Assembly: GCA_013112545.1 (NCBI GenBank)
Contig: JABFGJ010000006.1
Location: 62,001 to 126,000 of the forward strand
From: Bacteroidota bacterium
GTDB lineage: Bacteria > Bacteroidota > Bacteroidia > Flavobacteriales_E > Vicingaceae
Reading direction: 5' to 3'
DNA: 64,000 bases
Made by a program: the position numbers and the translations under genes. Positions 1,641 to 22,946 of the stretch are shown in pieces. Each line of letters opens with the position of its first letter. Positions within the stretch are counted from its first letter, which is position 1. Below the pieces are notes generated by a model. It did no database searches and was not told the DNA's origin. It was given only the letters and a program-made list of their open reading frames with translations.

Positions 1641-3128
1641 TTAATGACTTAACACCTCCCATATTTTAACCATGGCCAAGGTGTCTAATTTGCAATAAGC
1701 CAATAGATCTTTTCGAATGGGGTTTATTTGGTTATCTTCTATTGTTCCTTCGGCCAGTGCTTTAAGGTAATTGCTTGCATCTCCCCCATTGTTAATTTTC
1801 AAAGATTGATAATTTAAATCTGGATCATTGGCGCACAAAGCTGGCAACACTTTCTTAATAGAAGCTGAACCTTGCATTGCAGGGACATAATACCATGAAC
1901 TTCTGAATGGAATTATCAAATCTACTAACCGAACAGATATCGCATTTAATTGCTTGGCGTATTCAGGAAAATCTTCTGCCAATTGATTAATCTTTCCTCT
2001 CTCAAAACCTACATTATAGGTCACTATACTACCACTTACACCCAATTCAGATATCATTCTTTGAATTAATTCTTCTCTAGGGTCTTGATCAAATTCAGGT
2101 AGGTACTCTGTATGAATCAATTCTGAATTTGGGCTTTCTAAAACATGCAAGGAATATTGAACTGCATATTGTTTGTAGGGCGAAGTGCCATCGTAAATGG
2201 GAATGGCTGGCCCAATGGTTTCAAAGTCGAAGAAATACAAGGGAAATTCCCATTCAGAGAGAAAGTTGCTAATCTGTGGCTTATCAAGATGAGAAGCATT
2301 ATGCTTTACACCTTCAATTTGAAGTTGTTGCCTCTCTGAGAAATGGTCAGTATCCGGAATGTCTTTTATCCCATAAATTCCATGATTGACATAATCCCAT
2401 GCTTTAGAACCAATTCTAGAAATATTGAAAACCGAATTTTCAGGAATGTGCTGCCAGCAGTGTGCTTTGAACTCGCAATCAAATGGATTTCCACAATGAG
2501 CGCCAATGGCAACTTCAGGAACTTCTTTCAAATCAAGGGTTGCTTTTAGTTCTTTTAATTTTATAGAAACTTCATTTTGCTTTGCTATAACTTGCTCTGT
2601 AATATCTTCTAAATGAAATAACTGATTAGGGTCAATTTCCCCATCTCTAACATACTGATTATTAATATGCATGATATAAAAGACATCTGGCCTAAAACCA
2701 GAATTATTCATCACCCAATATTGCAAAGCACCATCATCCAAATGATAATCATGAACACCTGTGCTCGACTTCACCTCAATGGCGATTCGTTTCCCATCTT
2801 GCTGAACAAAGATGTCTAGAGCTGCCATTACTTCATCGTGAAAAAAAGATGCTTCGTAAATCACTTCCTCTCCACTATCTATCCATTCTTTGGTTTTTTC
2901 AATGGATGGACCATAATCGTAAAAAGATTCTGGTGTTGCATCTTTTCCATTCGGGAAACGTTTTATTGCCCAATCACCAACTTGGTCTCCTTGTTCAAAT
3001 AAGGCTTCTTGACTAGCCGAGACTGGAGTAGCCAATTCTCTGTGATACTTTGAAAGAAATAATTTTTTAGCACATTGCTTTCCTGCTATATAGCGAGATT
3101 TGGATAGTTTGTGTTGGTATTTGGTCAT
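1641..3128 (-). CDS. DUF2779 protein: Cas4-like nuclease plus RNase H-fold exonuclease
   Basis: The N-terminal half looks like a RecB/Cas4-type PD-(D/E)xK nuclease: D105 (ALDIF) and E118-V-K120 form the active-site pattern, and four cysteines (C19, then C212, C218 and C224) have the spacing type of an iron-sulfur cluster in Cas4/AddB nucleases. The C-terminal DUF2779 part (from about 295) starts FFDFETI, with D301 and E303 as in DEDD 3'-5' exonucleases. A DNA-end processing role is inferred. It lies 15 bases downstream of the AAA-M41 gene on the same strand, so the two are probably one operon, possibly under the divergent WYL regulator. Confidence 0.8.
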   Translation of the reverse strand: MTKYQHKLSKSRYIAGKQCAKKLFLSKYHRELATPVSASQEALFEQGDQVGDWAIKRFPNGKDATPESFYDYGPSIEKTKEWIDSGEEVIYEASFFHDEVMAALDIFVQQDGKRIAIEVKSSTGVHDYHLDDGALQYWVMNNSGFRPDVFYIMHINNQYVRDGEIDPNQLFHLEDITEQVIAKQNEVSIKLKELKATLDLKEVPEVAIGAHCGNPFDCEFKAHCWQHIPENSVFNISRIGSKAWDYVNHGIYGIKDIPDTDHFSERQQLQIEGVKHNASHLDKPQISNFLSEWEFPLYFFDFETIGPAIPIYDGTSPYKQYAVQYSLHVLESPNSELIHTEYLPEFDQDPREELIQRMISELGVSGSIVTYNVGFERGKINQLAEDFPEYAKQLNAISVRLVDLIIPFRSSWYYVPAMQGSASIKKVLPALCANDPDLNYQSLKINNGGDASNYLKALAEGTIEDNQINPIRKDLLAYCKLDTLAMVKIWEVLSH

Positions 3129-3143: not shown

Positions 3144-5195
3144 TTATATTACTTCAATAAGTTTCTTTTGAAATTGCATACTATACATTTCACTGTATTT
3201 TTTTGACTCTTCTGCCACAATTAAGCTTGGATTATGTTTCCTAAAAATGGCTTCCACCTCATCTTGATACATACATTTTTTTTGCATCAAATTGTCAGAC
3301 AAGATAATCAATGTTTTTTCATATTTTTTTAAGATATCCGAAGCTATGGTAAAAGCCTCATCAATAATTTGTTCAACATCCATTTTAGTTACTCTCTTTC
3401 TAATAAAACTCTCTTGATATACCCTACTTGTTTCAAACTCCTGAAAACCCCATAAATCAATCATAGAGTTGGCCATCAATCTTGCACGAAGCAAATCATC
3501 GCTTGCACCATACGTTACGGCTTCAGTTCCAAAAATTAACTTTTCTGCACAGAAACCGGCTACTAAAACTGCGATCTTTTTTATCGAACTATTCCTAGAA
3601 TGACTGCCTTTATGATCTGTAATTATTGCTCCCTTAAAGTCGTTTGATGCAGAATTAACAATGATTAATTTAGGGCTTTGGTTTTCTAAAATTCGGTAAA
3701 CAAGTGCATGTCCTGCCTCATGAACAGAGACCACTACCCTATCTTCCATTTCTTGCTTTTGCCGTATTGTTTTTAGGGGCATATCTACCTTTAGCTTTTG
3801 TTCACCAACTATTTCTTCGGCATCAGAATAAGTGATTTGATAACCTTCTGAACACAGGCCCCAAGTAATTTGATTTACATTTTGCCAGGTTTTTATATAA
3901 ATTTCGCCAATAATTTTACTCCATTGATTATAAATTAACTGCTTTATACTGGAAAGTAATGGTCTAGTCCCTTGGCTTGGATAAACACCTTCACTGTAAA
4001 TAAGCTCAGCTATTTCAGAAGTAAAAATCAGGTTAATTTGATGTTCCTTTTTAACATCTTCTTTAAATTTATCTAATTGGTTTTCAATAATTTTTTCATA
4101 AGCTAATTTAGATAGAGAAGGATAAATTAAATGTATGTTACCTAATCTGGCAATTTGCTCCCTTCTTAAAAAAGCAGCCAAACAAGATTTAATATCTCCA
4201 ACATCAACTTTTAAAGATTCCTCATAAAAAATAGTTGCATCAATATCTGGACTTAGATATCGAGACATAGGATAAGCATCATCTAAGTTTCCACTGATAA
4301 AAACGATTGCCTTAGAACAATCAACAATCTTGGGTGCAAGTGACTTTTTTAGATATTTATTAAGTAGTTTAATACTTTCTATTCCATTCAATTGGGCAAA
4401 CTCCTCCTCAACATCTGCCAAACTTAAATCTGGGCGATCTATTATTGATACTATCAATTCCAAAATTTCATAACTCACGAATCGAATCTTTCGATTTGTT
4501 AATACTTCTTCTATGGTTATATCATTGTCACGATTGAAAGATCGTCTTCTTTTCATGTAAGATATATCATCCAAAACATAATTGTCTTTATCTGTAATAT
4601 CCATATTCGTTATTCGCATGAAGGTTTCCTTTTTCGATACGACTTCTCCATTATGAACCTTCACTCCATTATCTATGGCTTTCTTTAACTTGAAAATTCT
4701 CCTTATCTCATTATTAGAGGTAGAATTGAAACCATAATCTTCAAACTTACCAGAGTCAATTATTTTCCAAACTATCTGAGCCATTTCATTAACAATTGAT
4801 TTTCCTTTTTCATCAATAGATCTTAAATGTTGAAATTCATCAAACAATAAAATGAGTGGTTTTTTACTATTGTTATCATGCAAATCATTCAAGGTATCTT
4901 GAACCATATACCTTGAATTCTTACTCATCTCGAAGCTATACAACGAATCTTTTAACTCTAGCAATTCACTCAATCGTTGAATTAGACTGGTTTTACCAGT
5001 TCCGGTCATTCCCCAAAGGTTAATCACATGAGGCCGCTTTTGAAATTCGGGAAATAAATACCAAGAACTCACATTATCAATTAATTGGTCAATAATGGAA
5101 TCTATTCCGAAATATTCTAATTTTAAAAGCCGTTTGGCATTTTCTAATTGTTTCTGCTTGGCTACTAAATCTCCTTTTCTTTTCTGTAATTTCAT
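3144..5195 (-). CDS. Clp-type AAA+ ATPase fused to an M41 (FtsH-type) zinc peptidase
   Basis: Residues about 20-435 form one AAA+ module: Walker A GMTGTGKT (62-69), Walker B LILLFDE (D119, E120), sensor-1 N303, a candidate arginine finger R350, and a Clp/HSP100-style small domain with sensor-2 in QGTRPL (R411). Residues about 485-660 are an M41 peptidase: HEAGH (H492, E493, H496), and D566/D567 in GASDDLLRA as the likely third zinc ligand. Unlike FtsH there is no transmembrane segment, and the ATPase resembles ClpB-D2/ClpX rather than FtsH. It should be a soluble ATP-dependent protease. A long insert (about 150-290) follows Walker B. Its substrate is unknown; DUF2779 and WYL neighbours suggest defence. 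Confidence 0.85.
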   Translation of the reverse strand: MKLQKRKGDLVAKQKQLENAKRLLKLEYFGIDSIIDQLIDNVSSWYLFPEFQKRPHVINLWGMTGTGKTSLIQRLSELLELKDSLYSFEMSKNSRYMVQDTLNDLHDNNSKKPLILLFDEFQHLRSIDEKGKSIVNEMAQIVWKIIDSGKFEDYGFNSTSNNEIRRIFKLKKAIDNGVKVHNGEVVSKKETFMRITNMDITDKDNYVLDDISYMKRRRSFNRDNDITIEEVLTNRKIRFVSYEILELIVSIIDRPDLSLADVEEEFAQLNGIESIKLLNKYLKKSLAPKIVDCSKAIVFISGNLDDAYPMSRYLSPDIDATIFYEESLKVDVGDIKSCLAAFLRREQIARLGNIHLIYPSLSKLAYEKIIENQLDKFKEDVKKEHQINLIFTSEIAELIYSEGVYPSQGTRPLLSSIKQLIYNQWSKIIGEIYIKTWQNVNQITWGLCSEGYQITYSDAEEIVGEQKLKVDMPLKTIRQKQEMEDRVVVSVHEAGHALVYRILENQSPKLIIVNSASNDFKGAIITDHKGSHSRNSSIKKIAVLVAGFCAEKLIFGTEAVTYGASDDLLRARLMANSMIDLWGFQEFETSRVYQESFIRKRVTKMDVEQIIDEAFTIASDILKKYEKTLIILSDNLMQKKCMYQDEVEAIFRKHNPSLIVAEESKKYSEMYSMQFQKKLIEVI

Positions 5196-5265
5196 GGTTT
5201 TATTTTAATATTTCCATACAAAACAAACCATACAGACTTTCAAGGTTTGACAGCCAACTAAAATT

Positions 5266-6228
5266 ATGAGCAAAAAAGGGCAAAATACTGGCTACAGCAC
5301 CTCCATTTCTAGCATTGGAATGATAGAACGATACATTCATTTTTTAGAGGCAGTGCAAACACTAAAACCCGCCACTAGAATCCGTATTCAAAATTATTTA
5401 GAAGAGCAAGGTGATCTAATATCTGAAAGTACATTCCACCGAATTCGGAAAAACTTAGAAGAAGGTTTGGGCATTGTTTTAGAACATGATAAACGATTAG
5501 GTTATCGCATCCAAAAGGAATCTCAAGAGGAATTAGAGCGATTTATGGATTTAACTGGTTTAGCAATTCGAGAAGGTCAAATAAAACAGGCCTTGCTAAA
5601 TGAACCTGATCTTTTTCAATATGTGCTTATGGAAAAAACCTTAGCCGGAGAGCGAAAAGAGATTCTTTCACCCATATTAAAAGCCTTGCTGAAAAAAAAG
5701 AAAATTGAATTAAGCTACCACAAATACGGCGCTGATGAAGCCAAAAACTATTATCAATTAGAACCGCATTACATTAAAAAGTACCTAGGCCGTTGGTATC
5801 TTTTTGCTTATGCTCCTTGGCTAGAGCGAGCGATGACCTTAGCAATTGACAATAGAATGACCAATGTACAAGTAAAGCACGAAAGTTTCACAAGAAAAGA
5901 GGATGCCTTCAAAAAATTATTTCAAGTGGTAGGTTTAAATTATGCTCAGGCTGAATACGACTTTAATATAAGTGAACCAGTGGGAATCGAATTTTGGGTG
6001 CAAGCGAATTATGTCGATTATATTGAAGCTCTACCGATACACCCAACTCAAACCATGACAAAACAAAATTCAAAAGGGAAAAACTTTAGAATAGAAGTAA
6101 TACCCAATTATGAATTAGTTCAAGCTTTTTTAAGAATGGGCAACCAAGCCAAAATTTTAAGTCCTAGCTTTTTTGTTGACTATTTTAAGGCTTGTGTGAA
6201 AGGAGTTTTGGAGCGGTATCGCCACTAA
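5266..6228 (+). CDS. WYL-domain transcriptional regulator
   Basis: The 320-residue protein has an N-terminal winged-helix region (about 15-75, with ESTFHRIRKNLEE as recognition helix) and a central WYL domain including LGRWYLFAY near residue 185, then a WCX-like C-terminal region. WYL proteins are ligand-sensing regulators often encoded with phage-defence genes. It is divergent from the AAA-M41/DUF2779 pair, with 70 bases between start codons, which fits control of that pair. Its last 17 codons recur as a remnant at 7860-7910, on the far side of hipBA. Confidence 0.88.
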   Translation: MSKKGQNTGYSTSISSIGMIERYIHFLEAVQTLKPATRIRIQNYLEEQGDLISESTFHRIRKNLEEGLGIVLEHDKRLGYRIQKESQEELERFMDLTGLAIREGQIKQALLNEPDLFQYVLMEKTLAGERKEILSPILKALLKKKKIELSYHKYGADEAKNYYQLEPHYIKKYLGRWYLFAYAPWLERAMTLAIDNRMTNVQVKHESFTRKEDAFKKLFQVVGLNYAQAEYDFNISEPVGIEFWVQANYVDYIEALPIHPTQTMTKQNSKGKNFRIEVIPNYELVQAFLRMGNQAKILSPSFFVDYFKACVKGVLERYRH

Positions 6229-6230
6229 AT

Positions 6231-6277
6231 GTCGCTTATTTATAACAAAATAAGTATATTTGTAATAAATAAGCGAC
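6231..6277. promoter_or_regulatory. Probable HipB operator with embedded -7 element
   Basis: A perfect 13-bp inverted repeat (GTCGCTTATTTAT at 6231-6243 and its complement at 6265-6277) is separated by 21 bases and ends three bases before the hipB start. A -7-like TATATTTG lies between and touching the arms (6255-6262). HipB-type repressors bind inverted repeats at their own promoter, so autoregulation is the likely reading. Confidence 0.7.
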
Positions 6278-6280: not shown

Positions 6281-6568
6281 ATGAACTCAAAGCAAGCTCT
6301 AGTGCTTCCTAAATATCAGAAGATATTTAATGAAATTGGTGAAAATATCAAACTTGCTCGAAAGAGAAGAAAACTAAGTATTATGCAAGTTGCTGAAAGA
6401 GCTGGTATTCATAGAGCCACGTTATCAAGAGTAGAAAAAGGGGACGTTTCTGTAGCAATTGGAATATATTTCAATGTTTTCAAAGTACTTAATTTACAAG
6501 ATGATTTTAAAGCTTTGGCTAAAAATGACGCTTTCGGAAGAAAATTACAAGACTTAGAGTTATTATAA
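6281..6568 (+). CDS. hipB: HipB-like antitoxin (XRE helix-turn-helix)
   Basis: The 95-residue protein has a Cro/C1-type helix-turn-helix at about 17-72: IKLARKRRKLSIMQVAERAG is followed by IHRATLSRVEKGD. It lies seven bases before hipA, in the standard antitoxin-toxin order of hipBA modules. The family antitoxin binds HipA and represses the operon; the inverted repeat just before its start is the expected target. The start ATG at 6281 is supported by that repeat lying directly upstream. Confidence 0.88.
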   Translation: MNSKQALVLPKYQKIFNEIGENIKLARKRRKLSIMQVAERAGIHRATLSRVEKGDVSVAIGIYFNVFKVLNLQDDFKALAKNDAFGRKLQDLELL

Positions 6569-6575
6569 AACCAAG

Positions 6576-7826
6576 ATGAGAACAGTAAATAAACAGGATA
6601 TTTTTGTGTTTGCAGATTGGGACTATATAGATGGACCATTATTAATTGGCACTCTATCGGCTCATTTTGGAAAAGGCAGAAAGTCCTTCAGTTTTGAATA
6701 CGATAAAGCTTGGTTAACTAAAATGAAGGATAATGCTTTTGATCCTGAAATTCATTTTTTTTCGGGTCCTCAATATCCGAATAACAAAGAAAATTTTGGA
6801 ATTTTTACAGATAGTATGCCCGATACCTGGGGAAGAACTTTAATGAAAAGAAGAGAGTTTGAAATTGCTAAAAATGAAAATAGAAAAGCAAGAACCCTAT
6901 ACGATATTGATTTTTTATTGGGCGTATATGATCAAAACAGAATGGGTGCGCTACGATTTAAAACAGAATTAAATGGTGCTTTTTTAGACAAAAATGATTT
7001 AAACCCAACGCCACCTTGGGCAAAACTAGCAGAACTACAACAAGCTGCTAAACTTTTTGAAAATGATAAAGAAAATGATTCTATTAAAGAATACTTAGCA
7101 ATTTTAATTGCTCCAGGTTCATCCTTAGGTGGGGCAAGACCAAAAGCTAATATCTTAGATAAAAATAATGATTTGTGGATTGCTAAGTTTCCTTCTAAAT
7201 CAGACACAATGGATATGGCTGCTTGGGAGTTTTTGGCCTATAAGCTTGCTTTAAAGTGTCATATTGAAATGGCTGAATGTCGATTGGAAAAAATTGGAAA
7301 CGAGTTCCATACATTTTTGACAAAACGTTTTGATCGGCAAAGGGATAAGAGAATTCACTTTGCGTCTGCCATGACTATGACAGAAAACACAGAAGATTCT
7401 ATTAAAGAAATTACACCCAGTTATTTAGATTTGGTAGAAGTCATTGAAAACGGAACTCAAGTTAAAGACAATCTACACCAGCTATGGAAACGTATTGTTT
7501 TTAATATTGCCATTTCTAATACAGATGATCATTTACGAAATCATGGATTTATATTAAAGCCCGAAGGCTGGGTTTTATCGCCTGCTTATGATTTAAATCC
7601 ATCGATAGACAAAACTGGCTTAGCTCTCAATATTGATACGCATAACAATGCGTTAGATTTTGACCTCGCTAAAAGTGTAGGGCAGTATTTCAGATTAAAT
7701 AATACTGAAATGAATGTGATTATTGATGAAGTTTTATCTGCAGTAAAAACATGGAAAGAAGTGGCTAAAAACATTGGAATACCTCGTTCAGAAATAGAAT
7801 TAATGAAAGCCGCATTTAGGGTTTAA
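6576..7826 (+). CDS. hipA: HipA-like serine/threonine kinase toxin
   Basis: At 416 residues this is close to E. coli HipA in length. Key elements are the loop SSLGGARPK (182-190, place of the autophosphorylation/P-loop region), a candidate nucleotide-binding lysine K204 in LWIAKF, the catalytic NTDDHLRNH (315-323, D317), and AYD (D339) as the metal-binding DFG-like motif. HipA kinases inactivate glutamyl- or other aminoacyl-tRNA synthetases and cause dormancy; the target here is not known. The module has all catalytic residues and appears intact. A related, decayed HipA 3' end lies at 1-251. Confidence 0.9.
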   Translation: MRTVNKQDIFVFADWDYIDGPLLIGTLSAHFGKGRKSFSFEYDKAWLTKMKDNAFDPEIHFFSGPQYPNNKENFGIFTDSMPDTWGRTLMKRREFEIAKNENRKARTLYDIDFLLGVYDQNRMGALRFKTELNGAFLDKNDLNPTPPWAKLAELQQAAKLFENDKENDSIKEYLAILIAPGSSLGGARPKANILDKNNDLWIAKFPSKSDTMDMAAWEFLAYKLALKCHIEMAECRLEKIGNEFHTFLTKRFDRQRDKRIHFASAMTMTENTEDSIKEITPSYLDLVEVIENGTQVKDNLHQLWKRIVFNIAISNTDDHLRNHGFILKPEGWVLSPAYDLNPSIDKTGLALNIDTHNNALDFDLAKSVGQYFRLNNTEMNVIIDEVLSAVKTWKEVAKNIGIPRSEIELMKAAFRV

Positions 7827-7859
7827 TACCGATTTATTATTTAATCCTACAAAATAGGT

Positions 7860-7910
7860 GACTATTTTAAAACTTGTGTAGAAGGAGTTTTGGAAAGATA
7901 TTCTGAGTAA
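7860..7910 (+). pseudogene. Remnant of the WYL gene 3' end
   Basis: Seventeen codons including the stop (DYFKTCVEGVLERYSE) match the last codons of the WYL gene (DYFKACVKGVLERYRH, 6178-6228) at both protein and DNA level. The fragment has no start and lies 34 bases after hipA. Together with the intact WYL end it brackets hipBA, which suggests that hipBA entered at the 3' end of a WYL gene or came with a segment carrying it. Confidence 0.85.
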
Positions 7911-7926
7911 TTAAAACCAATTTTAA

Positions 7927-8808
7927 CTACAGTGAATTAAAGTGATCCTCATATTCCGTGCCTCTATAATATTCTTTGGCAAACAACCTAGAAAACTCGT
8001 ACAAGCCTCTAAACTCCTCTCCTATTAAGTGAATGTTCCCAAATTCCTGTTTTAAAATAAAAGGGGCTTCATGAAATACTTCATAACCGCTCTCCCAGCC
8101 CATCAGTGCGGTAAAATACAAGCGGTCGTATTTAACTAACCAAGCCTCGTCAAAAGGTATGTATTCATTTACCGCTTGCTGCGCTTTTCTAATATGTTTA
8201 AAGTCATCTGCAATATATTGAAACCAAAAGTACAGGCTTTGGAACGGTCGGAATGCTAATGTATTCCAATCGTATTGAAGGGTCCAATAAAAATCGTGGT
8301 GACGACTTATCCAAGCTTCAATTTCTTCTTTTGTTACAAAAATTTGCTTGTAACTGTTTGTAATTTCAGCAATTGCTTGTTCTGCTTGAATCTTTTTTAA
8401 ATTATATTCTGCTGTTTCTCGAAAAGTTATTTTTTCATCATCATATACATATATTTCTGTACTACTTGGCTCTGCTGTAGGATATATGGAATGGTTTTTT
8501 AAATAATAACGCTCATGGGTTACAGGCATTGTTCTGTATTCTTTTACCTCATTTTCTGCATCTATTGTACTTTGATTTACTACCTCAGTAATTTCTCCTC
8601 TCTCATTTTTGTGAACGATATATTTATGGTATTTACCAACCTCAGAGAAGCACAAGTAATATTTTTCACTGCCCACCGGTAAATTTCTAATTTGAAATTT
8701 GGTAACCGGCATACCCATTAACCTATATTCTCTTCGAATTGCTACACATTTGCGGAGGAATAGGTAGTGCGGGATTTGGAGGAGGGTGGAGAGGGTTTGG
8801 AGGGTCAT
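7927..8808 (-). CDS. Hypothetical protein
   Basis: I do not recognise this 293-residue protein. It is rich in Tyr, Phe and Trp in its C-terminal half (FYWTLQYDWNTLAF, FQSLYFWFQYI) but has no clear membrane span and no signal peptide. The N-terminal 30 residues are of low complexity character and an internal start at MGMPVTKFQIRN (about residue 31) is possible. It sits alone between the WYL remnant and the AbiE-like pair, within a defence-rich stretch, so an accessory role is possible but not shown. Confidence 0.55.
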   Translation of the reverse strand: MTLQTLSTLLQIPHYLFLRKCVAIRREYRLMGMPVTKFQIRNLPVGSEKYYLCFSEVGKYHKYIVHKNERGEITEVVNQSTIDAENEVKEYRTMPVTHERYYLKNHSIYPTAEPSSTEIYVYDDEKITFRETAEYNLKKIQAEQAIAEITNSYKQIFVTKEEIEAWISRHHDFYWTLQYDWNTLAFRPFQSLYFWFQYIADDFKHIRKAQQAVNEYIPFDEAWLVKYDRLYFTALMGWESGYEVFHEAPFILKQEFGNIHLIGEEFRGLYEFSRLFAKEYYRGTEYEDHFNSL

Positions 8809-8845
8809 TTGATTTAAATTGGATTTTCACTTATAAAACTAAGAC

Positions 8846-9682
8846 TTAATGGCTATTAACTCCTTTATGAAATGCTTCTAATATGCTGAAAGTATATTCA
8901 ATTGCTCTATCTAATTTTTTTGCCCAATCTTTAGCTATTTCAGACTTACTTACCTCCTTTAAATTAGAAGTTAAAATTCCTTCAATACGCTCTGAGAGTA
9001 TTTTAGATTTATTAATCAGAAGTTTTGATTTTCTTCCTAGCACCTCTGCCGCAATTATAAGTTGATCAAAATTTTCATCGGGAATAGTGTCATAATGAAA
9101 TTCTACAATTTCATCAAATTCCAAATCATAATAATGTTGAATAATTCTTAGAATATCTGCTAGGTCGTTTTCCCTTTCTCCTGGTCTGTCGCTCCATGCT
9201 ATTAATTTCAATATTACCATTCCTTCTAATGTTGGAATGTTGGCTATTTTTTCTTCAATTGGAATAGGTACTGCTGCTTCTAAAACTTCACTAAATCCCA
9301 ATACATGCAAATCGGTATAGCGCTCATTGAAGTTATCGGTATGTTGTTCTTCAATTTCACCAAATGGCAATAATTCAATTGCTACATTAAAAGAATTTGA
9401 ATAAAAAGTCAATGGTGCTTTTACTTTTTGAAACCCTTTTTTGATTAGGCCTACTGTTATATTTTCAAAAGTAGCCATGTTGGGAATCATAATCGCAAAA
9501 TCTATGTCTTTTGTCCCCCTGTTAGGTTTTATTCCTTTTTTAAGGAGTTGTAAAGCAATTGCACTAGCTCCTATTAAATAATAAGGAGTTTCGTTTTCAC
9601 TCATAACATCGTCAATGCAATCAAAAGTTTCTTTAAAATATGGAATGCTTAGTTCCTTATAAGTTTTGTTGGATATATTCAT
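8846..9682 (-). CDS. AbiEii-like nucleotidyltransferase toxin
   Basis: This 278-residue protein shows the nucleotidyltransferase signature: YLIGASAIAL near residue 36 followed by GTKDIDFAI (the DxD metal site, about 57-65), and a later conserved KLIAW. AbiEii/MNT proteins transfer nucleotides to tRNA or other targets and act as toxins of type IV systems. Its start lies inside the end of the upstream gene (26-base overlap with 9657-10631), so the two are translated together. The pairing with an AbiEi-type regulator makes the toxin call likely, though activity is inferred. Confidence 0.78.
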   Translation of the reverse strand: MNISNKTYKELSIPYFKETFDCIDDVMSENETPYYLIGASAIALQLLKKGIKPNRGTKDIDFAIMIPNMATFENITVGLIKKGFQKVKAPLTFYSNSFNVAIELLPFGEIEEQHTDNFNERYTDLHVLGFSEVLEAAVPIPIEEKIANIPTLEGMVILKLIAWSDRPGERENDLADILRIIQHYYDLEFDEIVEFHYDTIPDENFDQLIIAAEVLGRKSKLLINKSKILSERIEGILTSNLKEVSKSEIAKDWAKKLDRAIEYTFSILEAFHKGVNSH

Positions 9683-10631
9683 TCAATATCATTTCTGCAG
9701 TTTCATTATTTCTTTTCCCTCCTTCTAACAATAGCTCAGCATATATGATGATGGCAGGAGCGGCTGTACCTTGATTAAATTCATTGTTCCAAAATAGCTC
9801 TACAACTTCTAGGTGACCATCTTGCTTTGGTTGAAGCTTATAGTTCCTAATCAGGTTAGCCTGAACTTCATTCGTATAAAGAATGAAGTTTTCTGGACGG
9901 AGGTAGTTTGTGAGCAGATCAGCTGCTGCTTCACCACCCCAAACGGCAATTCCTTCATTTAATTGAATCTCTTGCCATGGCACCCTCATTTGATACCTTT
10001 TATTCTTTAACGTTGGTTTTAGGATTGTTTGATAACCTTCTATCCACCTGTGCAGCAATTCTTTTCTATTCTCCCAAATGTATTCTTTTTTATTCAGTGG
10101 AATAAGATAACCCGTAGCCTTTAAGCCCTCAATAATTTGTGGAATATTTCCCAAACCTACTCCCGTATATTCTGCAATTTCTCTTTGTGTTTGGTTCACC
10201 AAGTCTTGTTTTATTAAAAAGTGTAAGAGCACCTTTAATCCTGTTTTTGTAAAGGCTCTATTTCCTTTTTCCTTCGTGATTTGAATAGGTTTTTTTGTAT
10301 CTATTAAAAGATAGACATGATCTCTTTCCAAGTACATATTACCATTCGCTTCCATGTATGCTATCTTTTTTTCTCTTAAAGCTTCCTTTACCTTTGTGGG
10401 TATCCGCTCAGCTACTAAAAGTACATGTTTATTTTGCCTACTTTTTTCTTCTAATTGGGCAATAAGGTACTGGCGTACTTCTTTTCTAAGCTCTATTACA
10501 AAATGAAATTGCTGGTTCTTATAAATTATAGTAATCACTTCATCTAACTTCTCTTTTGGGTTGTAGAGTAGTTCTAAAGGGACTTCTTTTTTTACATTTT
10601 GTAAAGCAATATTTAATATCTCTTTTTTCAT
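9657..10631 (-). CDS. AbiEi-like antitoxin/repressor
   Basis: This 324-residue protein has an N-terminal nuclease-like fold region and a central winged helix (about 128-185: TKTGLKVLLHFLI, QREIAEYTGVGLGNI, then KATGYLI), the layout of type IV antitoxins related to AbiEi (COG4861 type). These bind the operon promoter as repressors. It is the first gene of a two-gene unit with the nucleotidyltransferase, overlapping it by 26 bases. A strong palindrome with flanking half-sites lies directly upstream of its start, matching expected autoregulation. Confidence 0.78.
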   Translation of the reverse strand: MKKEILNIALQNVKKEVPLELLYNPKEKLDEVITIIYKNQQFHFVIELRKEVRQYLIAQLEEKSRQNKHVLLVAERIPTKVKEALREKKIAYMEANGNMYLERDHVYLLIDTKKPIQITKEKGNRAFTKTGLKVLLHFLIKQDLVNQTQREIAEYTGVGLGNIPQIIEGLKATGYLIPLNKKEYIWENRKELLHRWIEGYQTILKPTLKNKRYQMRVPWQEIQLNEGIAVWGGEAAADLLTNYLRPENFILYTNEVQANLIRNYKLQPKQDGHLEVVELFWNNEFNQGTAAPAIIIYAELLLEGGKRNNETAEMILNEYIQQNL

Positions 10632-10633
10632 TT

Positions 10634-10684
10634 GTTCACAAATATACGATGTTCACGTTACGTGAACAAGCAAAAATAGTGAAC
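10634..10684. promoter_or_regulatory. Operator cluster of the AbiE-like operon
   Basis: The central element GTTCACG-TTA-CGTGAAC (10651-10667) is a perfect 7-bp inverted repeat. Matching half-sites flank it: GTTCAC at 10634-10639 and GTGAAC at 10679-10684, making the whole cluster symmetric. It begins two bases upstream of the AbiEi-like start codon. AbiEi proteins are known to bind inverted repeats at their promoter, so this is the likely binding site. Confidence 0.75.
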
Positions 10685-10874
10685 AATATTTTTTTTCTAG
10701 AAATAATGTAGAGCTGAAATAAAAGCTCTTTTGCCTTTTAAAGGTTATTAGAAAATCGACCAGCAATTTGATTAATAATTTCAAAGTCAATATTTAGGGA
10801 TTATTGCTTAATCTCTGAGCGTTAAGCAACCAAAGATGGGTAAGGATTACTTATTAATAGAAAAATTATAGAAA

Positions 10875-11603
10875 CTAATAATCCCAATCTACATGACTCA
10901 CCGGTAAGCGATTTAACTCATCTCTATGCAATCGCCATTTGGGCATGAATTTATTGAGTAAACGTATAAAATTATCATTGTGATTGCGTTCGATTAAATG
11001 AACCAATTCATGAACGATAATATATTCCAAACAAATCATGGGTTTCTTCGCCAACTCCAAATTGAGTAAAATACGTTTGGTATCGGTTTTACACGAACCC
11101 CATTTCGTTTTCATGTGTTTTACTTGCCAATCTGAACTTTTAACTTCAATTACTTGCTCCCATTTATCAATTAAGGCTGGAACTACCGACTTTAAATAGG
11201 CTCGATACCATTCTTTCATTAATCGCTGTCTAGTTTCATAAGAAGTACCTAGACGCAAATTCATAATTATTTTCTTCGTTCCCTTTAACTCAACTGTATT
11301 CTTAGAAGCATCCTCTTTCACTTCTAGCATGTATTTTTTACCTAAAAAGTAATGCGCTTCACCAGAAATGTATTTTCGTGGCGATTCTCGATGACTTTCT
11401 TTAAATCCTTTTACATGTTTCTTAATCCATCCCAATTTAGAAATAGCAAACAATCGTATAATCTCAGGATCGGTGTGTTCTGGTGCTGCCAAACGAATTC
11501 GTCCAACTGGTGGATAAACTGCTAAGTGCATATTTTTGATGTCTTTTCGTACTACATCAATTTCTAAATTGGCAATTGAAATCTGCTCCATATCAATACT
11601 CAA
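10875..11603 (-). CDS. YgjP/SprT-like zinc metallopeptidase
   Basis: The 242-residue protein carries HELVHLIERNHND (HExxH zinc site with a second histidine downstream, about 192-205) and the preceding WGSCKTDTKRILLNLEL typical of the YgjP-like (DUF45, COG1451) M48-related family. Members are often encoded beside type I hsdR, as here: its start overlaps the end of hsdR by 11 bases. The substrate is unknown. It is the last gene of the large minus-strand restriction-modification locus. Confidence 0.85.
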   Translation of the reverse strand: MSIDMEQISIANLEIDVVRKDIKNMHLAVYPPVGRIRLAAPEHTDPEIIRLFAISKLGWIKKHVKGFKESHRESPRKYISGEAHYFLGKKYMLEVKEDASKNTVELKGTKKIIMNLRLGTSYETRQRLMKEWYRAYLKSVVPALIDKWEQVIEVKSSDWQVKHMKTKWGSCKTDTKRILLNLELAKKPMICLEYIIVHELVHLIERNHNDNFIRLLNKFMPKWRLHRDELNRLPVSHVDWDY

Positions 11604-14600
11604 CTTGCACTTTAATAATCTTCATTAATTCATCTGTTCGCTCTTGATTCTCGATAATAGAATTGATTGCAATATTAAGCTTACGCTCCTTTAATGGAGA
11701 GCTTTTCCAACCGTCTAGCTTATTTTGATGAATAATACTATCTACGGCTAGAGCCAACACTACATCCTGATCTAAATTATCAAAAAGCGACCTTTTTGCA
11801 GGAGTATCTAAAGTACTTGGATAGCTTCCACTTTTCTCTGGTGCTGTTATTTGTTCTGCCAATTCTTTAATTTTTCGCAAAAACTCTTCATAAGCAATGG
11901 AAGCTTCTTTTCGCATCCGAATCAATTCGGCTAGTAAAAATGACATCCGCTCGAAGTAACGTGGATTGGTGTGCGATTGCTCAATAATAACTCGCCGAAC
12001 ATTGTTTTCAATTTGTTCAGCAACGGCCTCTTGACTGCGTTTTTTCTGATAATTTTCACCAGGCTCACTTACATTAACAATCAGTTCTACTAAACTTTGA
12101 TTCTCGAAATCTGATATTTTTCTACTGCTCTTCGCATCAATATACATGTCCATTAATTGGCGCATACCGGGTTCAAAGCGTTTTAAATCAAAAGCATCAC
12201 CACTGGCTTGCTTTATCATGTCTCTCAGTTCGGTGTAATACCTCACCTGCTCTTTTATTTCAGCTGCTTCCTTTTCTGTATAGCCTGCTTTCTGCATTTC
12301 ATTGGCCAATTCAGTATAAGCTCTCACTAATTTAGAAACTGCTTTGTACAATGCCAGTCGCTTTTCTTCTCGATCTTTTATGTCTTGAGGAATCTCCGTA
12401 TTTCCACAGAAGAAACGCCTGAAGTTCGGTTCGTCTTTAGGAAAAACAGGCTCGCAAAGCGCAATAACAGCTTCCAAAGCGGTATCTAATCGCTCTTTGC
12501 TTACTTCATATCGATCTGATAGCAAATCTTTCACATCATCTATGTCGTATTCATCAAAAGCACCAGAAGTATAATCGTTAATTGAACGTTTTAAACTTTT
12601 AAATAAATCTTTGTAATCTATGATGTAACCAAATTCCTTATCCTCGCTATCTACTCTATTTACACGGCAAATGGCCTGAAAAAGACCGTGGTCTTGCATG
12701 CTTTTATCGATGTATAAATAAGTGGCAGATGGCGCATCAAAACCAGTTAACAATTTATCGACTACGATCAACAACTTCATTTGAGCCGGCTCATTGATAA
12801 ACTTGGTTTTTACCTCAGCTTCAAAATCTTCTGCACTTTTCCCATTGAGCATTTTGGTATAAATCTCATATTTCTCGATTTTATCCGTAGCTCCATCCTC
12901 CCCCGTAGTTTCACCCTTCAAATCACCGTGATGTGGTTCGTACGAAGTAATAATGGCACATTTTTTAAATCCTGCGCTTTGAAACAGCTCATAATATTTA
13001 CAAGCTTGATAAATACTTCCACTTACCAATAAAGCGTTCCCCTGCCCTGTTGACAACATCGGAAACATGTCAAAATCATAGATAATGTCTTGTACTATTT
13101 TTTCTAAACGAGATTTGGAACCCAATACGCGCTGCATGGTTCCCCATTTCTTTTTCAACTCGGTTTTGGCAACATCCGTTAATCCTGCGGTTTTGGTTTC
13201 AAACCAATTGTCTATTCGCTCCTGGTTGGTAATTAACTGCTCTACGTCTCTTGCTTCATACAATAAATCCAACACTACTCCATCGGCAACGGCTTCATCA
13301 AATTTGTAAGGATTGCCGATGTATGGCCCAAAAATCTCTATGCTTTTCTGTTTGTCTCTTTTTAAAAGTGGTGTTCCTGTAAAACCAATGAAAGTAGCAT
13401 CTGGTAAAAACAGTTTCATGGCTTCATGCAGCTTTCCCGATTGCGTTCGGTGACATTCATCTACAAATACATAAATCTCACCCAATGCTTCAAAATTGCC
13501 GTCTATGCTTTCTTTCAACTCTTTGATGTAAGCATCAAAATCGCCTTCGTCTGACTTTCTACCAAACTTATGCACCAAACTGCACAGCAACCAAGGGTCT
13601 TTCTTTTGTAAAACACTTAATAAATCTCTACCGCTAGTTGTTCTGTATATTTTCTCATCAACCCCAATAAACAACTTCTCTATTTGGTCGTCAAGCTCTT
13701 CTCTATCTGTAATGATTAATACACGGCTGTCTTTTACGTTTTCTCGAATCCATTTGGTGAGCCAAACCATGGTTAAACTTTTACCGCTTCCTTGTGTATG
13801 CCAAAGGATTCCGCCTTTCTTTTCAATTACATTGGTTTGGGCTGCCTTTATCCCAAAATACTGATTGGGGCGACACAGCTTTTTTGTGCCTTTATCAAAT
13901 ACTACAAAGTCGTGAATAAGCTCCAACAAGCGACCTTTCTCACAAATTTGAGCCAAGTGTTTGTCCAATATGTAATCAAAATGAAGGTCGCTTTCTTCTT
14001 TCCATTTTAGGTAATACTTTTCAGGAGTTTGTATAGTTCCGTAGCGCATGCCTTGGGTATCGTTGCCAGCCATTACTAACTGCATGCAACTAAAAAATTG
14101 TGGGATAAAATTGTTGCTTTGGTTGTCTAAATTTTGACGAATCCCTTCGCTTATGCCTACTTTACTTCGTTTTAGCTCTAATACTCCAACCGCAATACCA
14201 TTTACATAAATGACGATATCGGGGCGTTTCGGAAACTTTCCTTTCACAGTAACTTCTTCGGCAATGGCAAAATGGTTGTTTGTTGGGGTTTCCCAATCTA
14301 TCAATTTTACACTTTCTTTGGGCTGGCTCAACTCTTCCCGAACATTTACACCGTAACGCAGCAGCTTATACACCGCTTTATTGCTTTCGTATAAATCTTC
14401 AGACGATTTGCTCACCTCCTTCATTAAAGCATGAATGGCTTTTTTAGCCAAGGATGCGGAATAACCTTGCTTCTTAATTAAAAAATCGAGCAGCAAATTC
14501 TCTTCTACCGGATAAACCCGAGTTTCTTCCTCCCAATCGCCCAAATAATCGTAGCCTAAGTTATGCTGAAAATGTTGAATGATTCTATTTTGAGAATCTC

Positions 14601-14628
14601 TTTCTGATTTGCCTATTTGATTGTTCAT
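11593..14628 (-). CDS. hsdR: Type I restriction endonuclease, motor/nuclease subunit
   Basis: At 1011 residues this is full length for HsdR. The N-terminal PD-(D/E)xK nuclease has D137 (RPDIVIY) and E151-L-K153. The superfamily 2 translocase follows: Walker A TQGSGKS (278-284), DECH box (390-393), motif III FTGTP, and motif VI QAICRVNRV. With HsdM and HsdS it forms the complex that translocates and cuts DNA lacking host methylation. It overlaps the next upstream gene (14625-16436) by four bases (ATGA), so they are translationally coupled. No damage is visible. Confidence 0.95.
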   Translation of the reverse strand: MNNQIGKSERDSQNRIIQHFQHNLGYDYLGDWEEETRVYPVEENLLLDFLIKKQGYSASLAKKAIHALMKEVSKSSEDLYESNKAVYKLLRYGVNVREELSQPKESVKLIDWETPTNNHFAIAEEVTVKGKFPKRPDIVIYVNGIAVGVLELKRSKVGISEGIRQNLDNQSNNFIPQFFSCMQLVMAGNDTQGMRYGTIQTPEKYYLKWKEESDLHFDYILDKHLAQICEKGRLLELIHDFVVFDKGTKKLCRPNQYFGIKAAQTNVIEKKGGILWHTQGSGKSLTMVWLTKWIRENVKDSRVLIITDREELDDQIEKLFIGVDEKIYRTTSGRDLLSVLQKKDPWLLCSLVHKFGRKSDEGDFDAYIKELKESIDGNFEALGEIYVFVDECHRTQSGKLHEAMKLFLPDATFIGFTGTPLLKRDKQKSIEIFGPYIGNPYKFDEAVADGVVLDLLYEARDVEQLITNQERIDNWFETKTAGLTDVAKTELKKKWGTMQRVLGSKSRLEKIVQDIIYDFDMFPMLSTGQGNALLVSGSIYQACKYYELFQSAGFKKCAIITSYEPHHGDLKGETTGEDGATDKIEKYEIYTKMLNGKSAEDFEAEVKTKFINEPAQMKLLIVVDKLLTGFDAPSATYLYIDKSMQDHGLFQAICRVNRVDSEDKEFGYIIDYKDLFKSLKRSINDYTSGAFDEYDIDDVKDLLSDRYEVSKERLDTALEAVIALCEPVFPKDEPNFRRFFCGNTEIPQDIKDREEKRLALYKAVSKLVRAYTELANEMQKAGYTEKEAAEIKEQVRYYTELRDMIKQASGDAFDLKRFEPGMRQLMDMYIDAKSSRKISDFENQSLVELIVNVSEPGENYQKKRSQEAVAEQIENNVRRVIIEQSHTNPRYFERMSFLLAELIRMRKEASIAYEEFLRKIKELAEQITAPEKSGSYPSTLDTPAKRSLFDNLDQDVVLALAVDSIIHQNKLDGWKSSPLKERKLNIAINSIIENQERTDELMKIIKVQVEY

Positions 14629-16436
14629 GAATCGATTCTTTTATTGTTGAATTTCCAAGTTTCAAAAGCTAAATCCAATAATATCTTTTGCCTTGCTTGA
14701 ATAGAATTCTTAGTCCATTCTTTTGGACTGAAATGATATCTTAATTTAAATCGGTTTAAACCTGTATCTTTTCCAATTGAGAAGTTATGATTTAAAAGAT
14801 TTGTTGAAACAACTGAAGATTTAACATATTCTATTTGTTTCTTTTCGAACCAATTTGAGCTTAAATCATTAAACCTGTTTACAGCCTGATTAATTGAAGA
14901 CTCTAATAATGTTACATTGCCTAATTGGTTAATCGTATTGGTATAATCGTCATTATCAATAAATTCTTCTGGAATTACCCCGTCTTTTGGTGTTTGTGGC
15001 AAAATATGTTCTACTTGTAAATCATCATAGAAATCTTTACCCTTAATCGGAATCCCAGATAAGGAGAGAACTGTATTCTCTAAACTTCCTAAAACATAGC
15101 GTTTCCTATATAATGGATTGTAATTCCAATGACTTATATTTAGGAATGATGCTTTAAAAAGACTCAATTTTTCTTTTACATATTCAACCATTGTATTTTC
15201 AATCACAACTTCAATTTCTTCTTGTTTTGTCAGATTTCTCAATTTTGCAGCCCAAAGTGTAAAAAGTCGCTCATTATATTTAGCCTGAATACCAATTGTA
15301 TTACTGTAAAAGAAGAAACTTTCTAATTGAGTTCCTAAGTATAGAATTGTACTTTCTGGGGCATTTTGTTCGAGAGCTAATAGTAAAATTAAATGTTGTC
15401 TTGATCTGTATTTATTTATGAACCCAATATTTGTAATGCTTGGGAATTCACCTCCATCTGCCATTAATTGAGTTGCAGTTACTAACTTGGAATATCTTTT
15501 GGAACTAGCGTTTAATTCCTTGGCAAATTTTAATGGAGAGTTTTCATAGTCGGTTGCTTTTTTGCCTTCAGGAGATATTAACCACTTATATATAAAATCT
15601 TCTCGCATGATACCGAAATAATATCTCGCCATTAAGAAGTATCTTAAAAATCTAAGTGGACTTTGTCCTTCACCACATGAATGTAAGTTAGTTGTTATTT
15701 CTTTCCATATAATCTTAATTTTTTCAAAGTCTTGGGCATTTGCATGGCTAAAGAGTAGGTTTTTTACTAAATCCATTGCATTTAATCCAGCCCCCCGTTG
15801 ATTAATTGTTTCAAATATTTTTAATGCACTACTTAAATCTTCTGATTCAATTACAACTAGCTCAATTTTACCAATAAAGTATCTTAAATAGGCAATTAAT
15901 GAATCGTTATCTATGTTTTTATAAGTTGTAAAATGATCAAACAATTTAGCGTAGGCCTGCCTCATTCTAATAATAGAAGGTGTGTCTTCTTCTTTAAAAG
16001 TCTCATTATCTATCATGTGTTGAAGAAAGGTTTTACTCTCTTCGTATTGAAGTTCTAATCGATAATTGGTATCGTCACTCTCGATGTCAAAATCAGAAAG
16101 CAATTCTTCGATTTTTGCAAGGTATTTTTTTTGCTTATCAGTTAAAGATAATTTCTGTAAAATATCTCGAAATGCGCAAAGCGATAAGATGATAGTTGTA
16201 AGTCGTTGTTGACCGTCGATTACATCATACTTATTATTATTTTCTACTATGATAATTGAACCAATAAAATAACCCTTTTGCTCCTTAGTCGAAGGATCAA
16301 ATTCATTATCAATATCTGCAATAAATTGTTCTACCTGATCATCAGGCTTCCAGACATATTCCCTTTGATAATCAGGCACAATAAAGAAATAATCTTTTAA
16401 TTTCGAAATACTTTTAACGTTTGCTTCAATATTCAT
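14625..16436 (-). CDS. DUF262-DUF1524 fusion, GmrSD-type restriction protein
   Basis: The N-terminal DUF262 domain has QREYVW (24-29) and DGQQR (74-78), the nucleotide-hydrolysis motif of the GmrS/ParB-like fold, and RGAGLNAMDLVKN further on. The C-terminal DUF1524 HNH-type nuclease has VEHILPQ (H477) and LGNVTLL. Single-chain GmrSD proteins, SspE and BrxU cut modified or phosphorothioated DNA, or sense modification in other systems. Here it is embedded between the hsdS side and hsdR and overlaps hsdR by four bases, so it is probably made together with the type I enzyme. Confidence 0.88.
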   Translation of the reverse strand: MNIEANVKSISKLKDYFFIVPDYQREYVWKPDDQVEQFIADIDNEFDPSTKEQKGYFIGSIIIVENNNKYDVIDGQQRLTTIILSLCAFRDILQKLSLTDKQKKYLAKIEELLSDFDIESDDTNYRLELQYEESKTFLQHMIDNETFKEEDTPSIIRMRQAYAKLFDHFTTYKNIDNDSLIAYLRYFIGKIELVVIESEDLSSALKIFETINQRGAGLNAMDLVKNLLFSHANAQDFEKIKIIWKEITTNLHSCGEGQSPLRFLRYFLMARYYFGIMREDFIYKWLISPEGKKATDYENSPLKFAKELNASSKRYSKLVTATQLMADGGEFPSITNIGFINKYRSRQHLILLLALEQNAPESTILYLGTQLESFFFYSNTIGIQAKYNERLFTLWAAKLRNLTKQEEIEVVIENTMVEYVKEKLSLFKASFLNISHWNYNPLYRKRYVLGSLENTVLSLSGIPIKGKDFYDDLQVEHILPQTPKDGVIPEEFIDNDDYTNTINQLGNVTLLESSINQAVNRFNDLSSNWFEKKQIEYVKSSVVSTNLLNHNFSIGKDTGLNRFKLRYHFSPKEWTKNSIQARQKILLDLAFETWKFNNKRIDS

Positions 16437-16452
16437 AATTCTATTTTTATAT

Positions 16453-17220
16453 TTATTCCAAAATCCCCCTCACCATTTCCAAATCCCTCACTCTTTCTCT
16501 TATAATCTTCTTGTTGCTACTATAGCTAAATTGGGAATAATCTATTTCTATTAATTTAATTTGTTGTTGCTTTAAAACGTCTCTGCGGCGTTGGTCGTAT
16601 ATTTTACGTTGCTCGCCTCTGCTCACTCCGCTTACCGTCATTACATCTGCTTTGTCAAAATGTGGTACTGCTTCGCTGTGCTGCCGTTCTCTGTATTCTA
16701 TCACCAAGTTTAAGCTTTCATAAAAAGCATCTACAGGTAATTTTCTTCCTTCTTTATTCTTTCCTGTGTCACCTCTTAAAAAATCGAAGGTATGTTGTCT
16801 GCTTCCTGTTTTGCCCAACACTTCATCACAGAGGTTAAGCACATAATTTTCATCACTGTCTTTGCGTTTACTTTCCGTTTTAACCGCTTTTGACGTGGTT
16901 TTTACTATTGGTTTAATCGGCTTTTTTATTGCTAAGGGTTTAGAACCGGCAAAACGGCCAATCGGCTGAAAATACCAATTCACATATTTTGTATTCCGTT
17001 CAGCTACCAAATAAGGAATCAAATGCAGTTGGTTTTGTTTATCTAAGTCTCGTAATAGTTTACGCAGCGGTAAACCATCTTTAGGGTTCTTTTCCCAAAT
17101 ACCTGCTTTTAAAAAATATGGCATAAACTCTTTGGCGGCTTGTCGCCCAATACTTGGGCTGTGTGCATACACCAATTCCAATACTTGGTTTATCAAAGAA
17201 ATTCGCTCTTCATTATTCAT
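16453..17220 (-). CDS. Vsr/DUF559-like endonuclease-domain protein
   Basis: The first 85 residues form a helical domain; a basic linker (about 95-120) follows; the last 100 residues have the pattern of a Vsr/DUF559-type PD-(D/E)xK fold: VDAFYESLNLVIEYRERQH (D164, E175, Q180, H181), then YDQRRRDVLKQQQIKLIEID (D209, R213). In such proteins the D and E/Q residues bind the metal. I do not know a named family for the N-terminal part. It sits between hsdS and the GmrSD-like gene, so it may be a nicking or accessory nuclease of the locus. Nuclease activity is inferred. Confidence 0.65.
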   Translation of the reverse strand: MNNEERISLINQVLELVYAHSPSIGRQAAKEFMPYFLKAGIWEKNPKDGLPLRKLLRDLDKQNQLHLIPYLVAERNTKYVNWYFQPIGRFAGSKPLAIKKPIKPIVKTTSKAVKTESKRKDSDENYVLNLCDEVLGKTGSRQHTFDFLRGDTGKNKEGRKLPVDAFYESLNLVIEYRERQHSEAVPHFDKADVMTVSGVSRGEQRKIYDQRRRDVLKQQQIKLIEIDYSQFSYSSNKKIIRERVRDLEMVRGILE

Positions 17221-17388
17221 TCTAGTTTCAAGTTCAGTTCACTTTTCTCTATCATTTCCGCTTGCCTATATTTCGACTATCGCTCAATATGACAAGCTAA
17301 CTTGTATTTTATTCACTTATAATTTCTCATTCGCAATTCTATCTTCATTTTACCACTAATCTGTCTAATCTCTATCAGCGCAGCAGTC

Positions 17389-18624
17389 TTAAATTAACCT
17401 CGTCCTCCCCGTCAACAACTCCTGCATCATGCCTTGCTTGAGCTGTTCTACTTTGGCCTTTTTAGTTTCTAGTTGCTCTATTTCTAAATCCATATCGGAT
17501 AAAATGTTGGCGATTCTGGTTTGTTCTTGTTTTGTTTTAGGCAATTTTATTGGACATTCTAAAACTTCATTTCTTTTAAGATTTGTTTGTCCTGTTCCAC
17601 TATCAAACGCTAAATAATATTTATTTCTATTTAAAATGAAAAAGAGAAATTTAGTATCTACAATTTCAGTTCTAAAAGAACAAATTCTTTGATTTAAAGT
17701 GTATTTGTTATCAACGGGAATTAAAAAACATTTTGCAAGAGCCTTTCCATTTGGAATGTCACTCATAACCATAACAATATCATTCTTTAATAAAGGGAAT
17801 AAATTATTATTGGATTTTTTAAAAACTTTTCCACTTGTAGAAACGAATTTTGAATTAACCACTATAAATTCACCATTGGGATCTATTGAATTTTCATGGG
17901 CCTTACCATTAAAAAACTCACAAACCTCCCCTAATTGTTTTTCCTCCCATCCCTCCTTCGGTTTTAGCAATTCTTGCATGGCGCCTTGTTTAATGGCTTT
18001 CTTTTTGGCAATCAATTGTTCCAATTGTGCCAAATAGGCATCGGTATCGCTAAGCACTTCGGCTATGGCTTGCTGCTCGGGGAGTGGTGGGAGTGGGATT
18101 TTGGAATTTTTGATACTACCAACGGATGTATGCCTTACTGTCGAACCAGTTGCGGTAGACTTCATATAATTTGAGAAAGTCTTAGATGTGAAGTAGATGT
18201 AAAGAAACTGTTTATCTAATCTTTCTGTTGTAATAATAATCTTTCCAATTCTTTGATTATGTAAAATTGTTTCATTAGAATTAACGATTCCCGGCTTGCC
18301 TAATAAATTACAAGAAGGTGTTAAGTCAGTCATTACAATTAACAAATCTCCATTATCAAATTTCATTTCATTTGTAATTTCACCTGAATAATGAATAGTA
18401 TTTCTTTCAGTAAAATTTAGCCCACCAGTTAATTTAAAATTACCCGGAGTTATAACTAAAGGTCCGTTATTGGAAAAGTATTCACTTTTTAAAGAATAAC
18501 CATTTTTCAAATTTGCTAAGGTTCCTAAATCAACCACTTCCCAATCCTCAGGAATCAGTCCCACTTCAGTTTGTTTGTAGTTTCGGCTTCGCTCAACTAC
18601 CGCACTTTTATTCGTTGTTTGCAT
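17389..18624 (-). CDS. hsdS: Type I restriction-modification specificity subunit
   Basis: The 411-residue protein has two target recognition domains, each followed by a conserved helix: PLPPLPEQQAIAEVL with a coiled coil ending KQGAMQELL, and TKQEQTRIANILSDMDLEI ending KQGMMQELLTGR. This is the standard HsdS two-half layout that binds a bipartite DNA site. The N-terminus MQTTNKSAVVERSRNYKQTE is encoded partly by a repeated 18-bp motif. A truncated second copy of its 5' end lies upstream at 19402-19695, beyond the HEPN gene. Confidence 0.93.
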   Translation of the reverse strand: MQTTNKSAVVERSRNYKQTEVGLIPEDWEVVDLGTLANLKNGYSLKSEYFSNNGPLVITPGNFKLTGGLNFTERNTIHYSGEITNEMKFDNGDLLIVMTDLTPSCNLLGKPGIVNSNETILHNQRIGKIIITTERLDKQFLYIYFTSKTFSNYMKSTATGSTVRHTSVGSIKNSKIPLPPLPEQQAIAEVLSDTDAYLAQLEQLIAKKKAIKQGAMQELLKPKEGWEEKQLGEVCEFFNGKAHENSIDPNGEFIVVNSKFVSTSGKVFKKSNNNLFPLLKNDIVMVMSDIPNGKALAKCFLIPVDNKYTLNQRICSFRTEIVDTKFLFFILNRNKYYLAFDSGTGQTNLKRNEVLECPIKLPKTKQEQTRIANILSDMDLEIEQLETKKAKVEQLKQGMMQELLTGRTRLI

Positions 18625-18636
18625 CTATTTTTTTTT

Positions 18637-19317: not shown

Positions 19318-19330
19318 TTTTTGTTAATTT

Positions 19331-19348
19331 TTTAAGTATAAACTTAAA
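19331..19348. promoter_or_regulatory. Inverted repeat upstream of the HEPN gene
   Basis: TTTAAGT (19331-19337) and ACTTAAA (19342-19348) form a perfect 7-bp inverted repeat 13 bases upstream of the HEPN start codon. It could be an operator allowing independent control of this gene within the hsd locus; the AT-rich setting makes chance a real alternative. Confidence 0.35.
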
Positions 19349-19401
19349 TTATTCTTATCTTTGTGTCATCTTATTCCCATTAGTCCCTGAAGCAATTCAA
19401 A

Positions 19402-19695: not shown

Positions 19696-19755
19696 ATTGT
19701 CAGAATTGGGATTTTTTTGATTTATGGATGATGGGATTTTTGATTTGTATTTTAA

Positions 19756-22651: not shown

Positions 22652-22654
22652 AAT

Positions 22655-22944: not shown

Positions 22945-22946
22945 AT

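Follow-up and report, generated by a model that had tools for sequence, protein, structure and literature searches.

What kind of protease does the gene at positions 3144..5195 (minus strand) encode in this window, the whole 64,000-nucleotide stretch of DNA analysed here, and does it act in defence? The bacterial AAA+ proteases usually counted are Lon, FtsH, ClpXP/AP/CP, HslUV, and the actinobacterial proteasome. A sequence-only reading had proposed a soluble Clp-type AAA+ motor fused to an M41 peptidase, with both active centres intact, and had nominated it as a defence effector. We identify a single open frame of 683 codons, encoding a 683-aa protein, and the opposite (+) strand over the same interval is full of stops. 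A chance ORF or pseudogene is ruled out by 85 conserved relatives.

Residues 1–429 (about 1–430; 3909..5195, minus strand, as are all segments of the gene given here) form a single HSP100/Clp-D2-type AAA+ module according to Pfam, PDB profile, and structural model, with a Pfam AAA match at residues 60–139. It contains Walker A GMTGTGKT (residues 62–69; 4989..5012), Walker B ILLFDE (residues 115–120; 4836..4853), and a ClpB_D2-small lid with sensor-2 in QGTRPL (residues 361–429; 3909..4115), which scores 32.9 bits against a Pfam cut-off of 21.9 and bears out the HSP100-style small domain of the earlier reading. The M41 zinc peptidase follows at residues 482–650 (3246..3752; 66.5 bits against a Pfam cut-off of 29.9) and holds the HEAGH zinc site (residues 492–496; 3708..3722). 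Across 85 distinct members, K68, D119, N303 (sensor-1), R350 (Arg finger), R411 (sensor-2), H492, E493, H496, and the third zinc ligand D567 are invariant. The sole catalytic exception is the Walker-B glutamate, E120, kept in 84 of the 85 and replaced by aspartate in one phage copy. Both active centres are thus intact: the protein has HEXXH with a third Asp ligand, as M41 peptidases do, and the D2-small lid with sensor-2 GxRP of D2 motors. It also appears to be soluble, as had been claimed. Maximal 19-residue Kyte-Doolittle hydropathy is 1.47 in the window protein against 2.5–2.7 in true FtsHs, and no membrane segment was found in the 85 members, none of which exceeds 1.9.

The long insert noted earlier exists, although not directly after Walker B. 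This family-specific segment (residues about 152–293; 4317..4742) is placed by alignment and the AlphaFold2 model between the helix that comes next and the sensor-1 strand, the position of pore loop 2 or a pre-sensor hairpin in other members of the AAA+ class; it spans 142 residues in the window protein and 80–181 across the family. No conserved aromatic of the GYVG type was found in the pore-loop-1 columns (91–112), a stretch that is variable and hard to align, and substrate pulling may therefore be done differently, or be weak. From the domain order and intact sites, we infer a proteolytic hexamer in which an HSP100-D2-type ring motor would unfold protein and feed it to an M41 zinc peptidase ring made by the same chain. 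With a peptidase already on the chain, a ClpP partner is unlikely.

Is the motor that of an FtsH or of a Clp protein? ClpB-type D2 domains score 64.9 and 63.4 bits with a profile built from the family's AAA half alone, compared with 45 bits for ClpA D2, 27 bits for ClpX, and 9–11 bits for FtsH AAA domains. Searched against the PDB, a 44-relative profile matches FtsH/YME1 over residues 447–663 (3e-29), the D2 domains of Hsp104/ClpC/ClpB over about 310–440 (6e-19), and ClpE/ClpA across the N-terminal part. The AlphaFold2 model (pLDDT 85.8) agrees: the AAA half has its best structural match in Skd3, a single-ring HSP100 (Z 23.2, rmsd 3.0 Å, 303 residues), and residues 480–664 match the M41 domain of AFG3L2 (Z 21.4, rmsd 2.5 Å, 178 residues). 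In the AAA tree the family forms its own clade (support 100/100) beside a closed FtsH clade (100/99); it lies outside FtsH, as the earlier reading required. AU tests reject none of the three candidate sister groups (p 0.31 for D2, 0.22 for ClpX/HslU, and 0.17 for FtsH), so it is the profile scores and the structural match that assign the motor to HSP100. On these grounds and on its lid, the motor is of the HSP100-D2 type and not FtsH, and the fusion of a Clp-type motor to an M41 peptidase is upheld by Pfam, the AAA profile, and the structural matches alike. An FtsH paralogue is ruled out by the AAA profile scores, the tree, and the missing anchor. The host genome's own membrane FtsH, on another contig, is 25% identical over the M41 part only, and the NCBIfam FtsH model gives about 50–61 bits on the family against a cut-off of 600.

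The whole fusion is described by no model in Pfam, NCBIfam, PHROG, or PADLOC, and the papers searched give no account of it, so that it does not appear to be a well-known housekeeping protein. As neither the library models nor these papers describe the whole architecture, we regard it as a further variant within the AAA+ proteases. It shares with FtsH, YME1, and AFG3L2 an M41 domain C-terminal to the AAA motor in one chain, HEXXH and a distal Asp, and overall Foldseek matches; it differs in its HSP100-D2-like AAA core and lid, its lack of a membrane anchor, and the insert at the pore-loop-2 site. With Skd3, ClpB, ClpC, and ClpA it shares the AAA core, D2-small lid, sensor-2 G-x-R-P, and Arg finger; unlike them, it combines one ring with its own M41 and the extra insert, and no conserved GYVG-type pore loop was found. 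A soluble Clp-type motor with an FtsH-type peptidase would, if true, provide a further architecture and a natural experiment on motor-peptidase coupling. Among defence systems, the likeness is to IetAS, which also brings an AAA ATPase together with a protease, a subtilase encoded by a separate gene; here M41 is fused in cis and no subtilase adjoins. PADLOC gave only a weak IetA match (15.5 bits, P-loop region only), the neighbours being WYL and DUF2779, and a known defence system was rejected as an identification. Large phages also carry M41 proteases, such as the FtsH-like protein of the jumbo phage MIJ3, which is reported to be closer to bacterial FtsH (PMC6892783); the cultured-phage copies found are canonical FtsHs, which distinguishes them from the present family. 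Neither FtsH nor M41 is named in a review of 224 jumbo phages, which does list ClpP, ClpS, ClpA, and ClpX (PMC7824862).

What might control such an enzyme? The earlier reading had placed a nuclease and a WYL regulator beside it, and a nuclease-like DUF2779 gene and a WYL gene do adjoin the protease. The WYL-domain regulator (5266..6228, plus strand), identified by Pfam (39.5 bits, over the cut-off) and by its model, is divergent from the protease and is the only WYL gene in its genome. More widely, a WYL regulator lies within three genes of the protease at 25 of 39 distinct non-Chryseobacterium loci, and in one of these regulators (L024) both WYL and WCX exceed their cut-offs. The model of the window regulator (pLDDT 76.9) has PafBC and DriD as its nearest solved folds, then BrxR and CapW. 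It resembles these proteins in its HTH-WYL-WCX build and fold, and differs in being paired with a fused AAA+ protease and in the sequence of the operator. PafBC is activated by ssDNA (PMC11804915) and DriD is an ssDNA binder (PMC12340889); by analogy of fold, ssDNA is a candidate signal for this family too.

Reading the protease promoters revealed an inverted repeat, CGnCA-N5-TGnCG. Of the 25 WYL loci, 11 have an exact copy upstream of the protease gene, where shuffled sequences predict 0.07; 2 of the 14 loci with no WYL gene within range also have one, and none of the 30 Chryseobacterium loci does. The repeat spans the -33 region of the protease promoter. At 13 of 20 sites a TAnnTTTG -7 box follows within the expected range of distances, against an expectation of 0.18, and almost every one of these boxes is exactly 26 bp away. 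For a tighter pattern, CGHCANNNTTTGGCG, the sole genome-wide match is the protease promoter in two genomes; both matches fall in the protease cluster in a third genome, and two of three do so in a fourth. The box at L024 has 11-bp arms and a 5-bp spacer (TCACTCCGACA-TACTT-TGGCGTAGTGA), the same geometry as is described for the inverted-repeat box of BrxR, whose spacer is also 5 bp long (PMC9122601). Judging from these sequences, the WYL protein would bind the CGnCA-N5-TGnCG box. That the repeat stands at a fixed distance from the -7 box speaks more for an activator acting from the -33 position, in the manner of sigma adaptation by PafBC (PMC11804915), than for a repressor. With a DriD/PafBC-like regulator and a recognisable operator, the signal that induces proteolysis under phage or DNA stress becomes open to direct experiment.

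These regulatory arguments are strongest for the relatives, because the promoter of the window's own protease lacks the box and the recognition helix (HTH) of the window's WYL protein departs from the family consensus. The 70 bp of promoter DNA that separate the two divergent genes (5196..5265) showed no consensus operator, and the window locus may use a diverged one. A weak palindrome in that region, CTGTCAAACCTTGAAAG, is a candidate only. An exact match to the family operator, CGCCACTAAATGTCG, lies at 6220..6234, 46 bp before a hipB-like gene; no other strong match occurs within the window's first 20 kb, where about 0.3 are expected, and the site may be real or due to chance.

Regulator and protease also travel together. 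Two loci from different classes (L024 and L050) share 3,049 bp of DNA at 82.7% identity, a stretch that coincides exactly with the WYL and protease genes. Identity between their proteins is 86% and 84%, against 58% for the FtsHs of the same genomes. On this pattern of identity, the transferred unit is the WYL-protease pair. In bacteria, the protease with its divergent or preceding WYL regulator would thus form a mobile two-gene module.

Where the family occurs bears on what it is for. The 85 distinct full-length relatives comprise 44 from Bacteroidota/Ignavibacteriota and 41 on viral contigs, mostly large. When genomes were sampled evenly by phylum, 5 of 395 had full-length relatives; in a class sample, 18 of 395 had them. 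The all-phyla scan was based on exact patterns taken from just two sequences and may have missed copies in other phyla. Single-sequence scans of genomes and viral contigs gave no matches, and the relatives surfaced with alignments. In plasmid and cultured-phage collections no match covered more than 80% of the query, the matches being mainly to the M41 part of FtsHs, and three queries against 50,697 phage records gave no full-length family member.

The 41 viral copies, on IMG/VR contigs of up to 476 kb, raise the possibility that the enzyme began as a phage protease for host takeover or virion maturation, repeatedly captured by bacteria and put under WYL control. Of 35 such viral records tested, 23 carry a terminase large subunit and none ribosomal L2, a single viral clade is rejected (p 0.00015), the tree requires at least five switches between phage and bacteria, and a Chryseobacterium-Arcicella-Neolewinella clade is nested among viral branches. 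The tree is unrooted, however, so that the direction of transfer can be read either way; most WYL-linked copies make up one large bacterial group, and the viral neighbourhoods show no conserved partner or structural-gene neighbour. We consider a phage birth of this kind rather unlikely as the explanation, and it speaks to ancestry more than to present function, the rival readings overlapping in part. Its occurrence on viral contigs suggests that phages and bacteria alike use the enzyme as a weapon or tool.

Chryseobacterium might suggest the opposite of conflict, an accessory protein quality-control protease. One copy, 81–100% identical to the query, is kept in 27 of 78 sampled genomes, beside DUF4407 and IMPDH in the loci read, and in one Chryseobacterium lineage the copy occupies a single chromosomal site without WYL. 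Against this reading, which we hold to be quite improbable, the family is patchy elsewhere and horizontally moved, is set in a defence island, and has its own stress-type regulator. In the Chryseobacterium loci read (for example L082), the DUF4407 gene is directly upstream and IMPDH nearby, and neither WYL nor the operator was seen. The WYL-less copies at L068, L070, L073, and L058 adjoin RNA-repair genes: KptA stands directly downstream of the protease in the three Dysgonomonas loci, RtcB lies upstream in L068, L073, and L058, and the release factor PrfH is present in L073 and L058; the RNA-repair neighbours of L073 and L058 were confirmed with Pfam/NCBIfam. With a WYL-less Chryseobacterium copy and Dysgonomonas copies beside RtcB, PrfH, and KptA, a single function may not hold for the whole family.

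The same evidence qualifies the proposal of a defence effector. A soluble, intact fusion stands, but the effector role does not follow: large phages encode the same enzyme and the Chryseobacterium copy persists at one site without WYL, so that a bacterial defence effector describes it less well than does an inducible AAA+ protease that both sides employ. A defence role remains plausible. We propose, with slightly more confidence than doubt, that the enzyme is a soluble, self-compartmentalised AAA+ protease, inducible and mobile among Bacteroidota, which belongs to a WYL-governed regulon for DNA stress or phage response and which large phages employ as well. The proposal builds on the computed fusion, its conservation, the WYL linkage, the operator with its fixed -7 spacing, the transfer of the pair, and the presence on viral contigs. 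The WYL regulator would bind the inverted repeat over -33 and, in response to ssDNA or some other nucleic-acid ligand that signals stress, would induce the protease along with adjacent genes for DNA processing (PD-(D/E)XK, DUF2779, UDG-like, DnaB-like). The protease would then clear particular proteins from cells with damaged DNA or under attack by phage. A broader version, which we put forward tentatively and hold to be the less probable of the two, is a further ATP-dependent protease architecture common to large phages and Bacteroidota; in bacteria it would stand at the core of a horizontally transferred WYL-box regulon that couples ssDNA-triggered proteolysis to nucleases in protection against phage.

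The neighbouring genes are pertinent here. The same box lies upstream of genes for PDDEXK_4 (L067), DUF2779 (L069), UDG-like proteins (L072, L060), and a UVR-motif protein and DnaB-like helicase (L065). In the window, the DUF2779 protein, with a weak Cas4-like stretch, is encoded at 1641..3128 (minus strand), 15 bp downstream of the protease, and its gene is probably co-transcribed with it; DUF2779 stands beside the protease at 8 of 39 loci. A defence island surrounds the window locus and extends to about 23.8 kb (6281–23774), within which Pfam and PADLOC identify HipBA, an AbiE pair, and a YgjP-like peptidase. It further holds the type I R-M subunits HsdR (11593–14628), HsdS (17389–18624), and HsdM (20234–22651), together with a HEC-06/DUF262-like protein (14625–16436), a PD-T4-5-like protein (18637–19317), and PDC-S31 (22947–23774).

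Such surroundings would also suit restriction alleviation, a defence off-switch in which the WYL-induced protease removes neighbouring nucleases, namely DUF2779, PD-(D/E)XK, and type I HsdR, upon host DNA damage and so prevents self-harm. Nuclease genes recur beside the protease, some with its operator, and the type I R-M system lies 6 kb from it in the window; ClpXP degrades EcoKI HsdR during alleviation (PMC4231737, PMC11109961). The partner nucleases vary by locus, however, and many loci have no nearby nuclease, the phage copies lack a conserved partner, and a shared box that drives nuclease and protease together would be odd for an off-switch. We judge this reading improbable beside that of an inducible protease in a WYL-governed stress regulon.

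Several minor features of these neighbourhoods deserve mention. A 293-aa protein encoded at 7927–8808 of the window, between HipA and the AbiE pair, has no Pfam or PADLOC match. Small proteins of the UDG superfamily, or lookalikes, recur beside the protease (L069, L072, L060); at L069, two of them match Pfam UDG, one over the cut-off, and the others have no Pfam match. Near another protease locus (L026, 4491–6160), genes that by eye resemble a second AbiE-type pair are putatively present.
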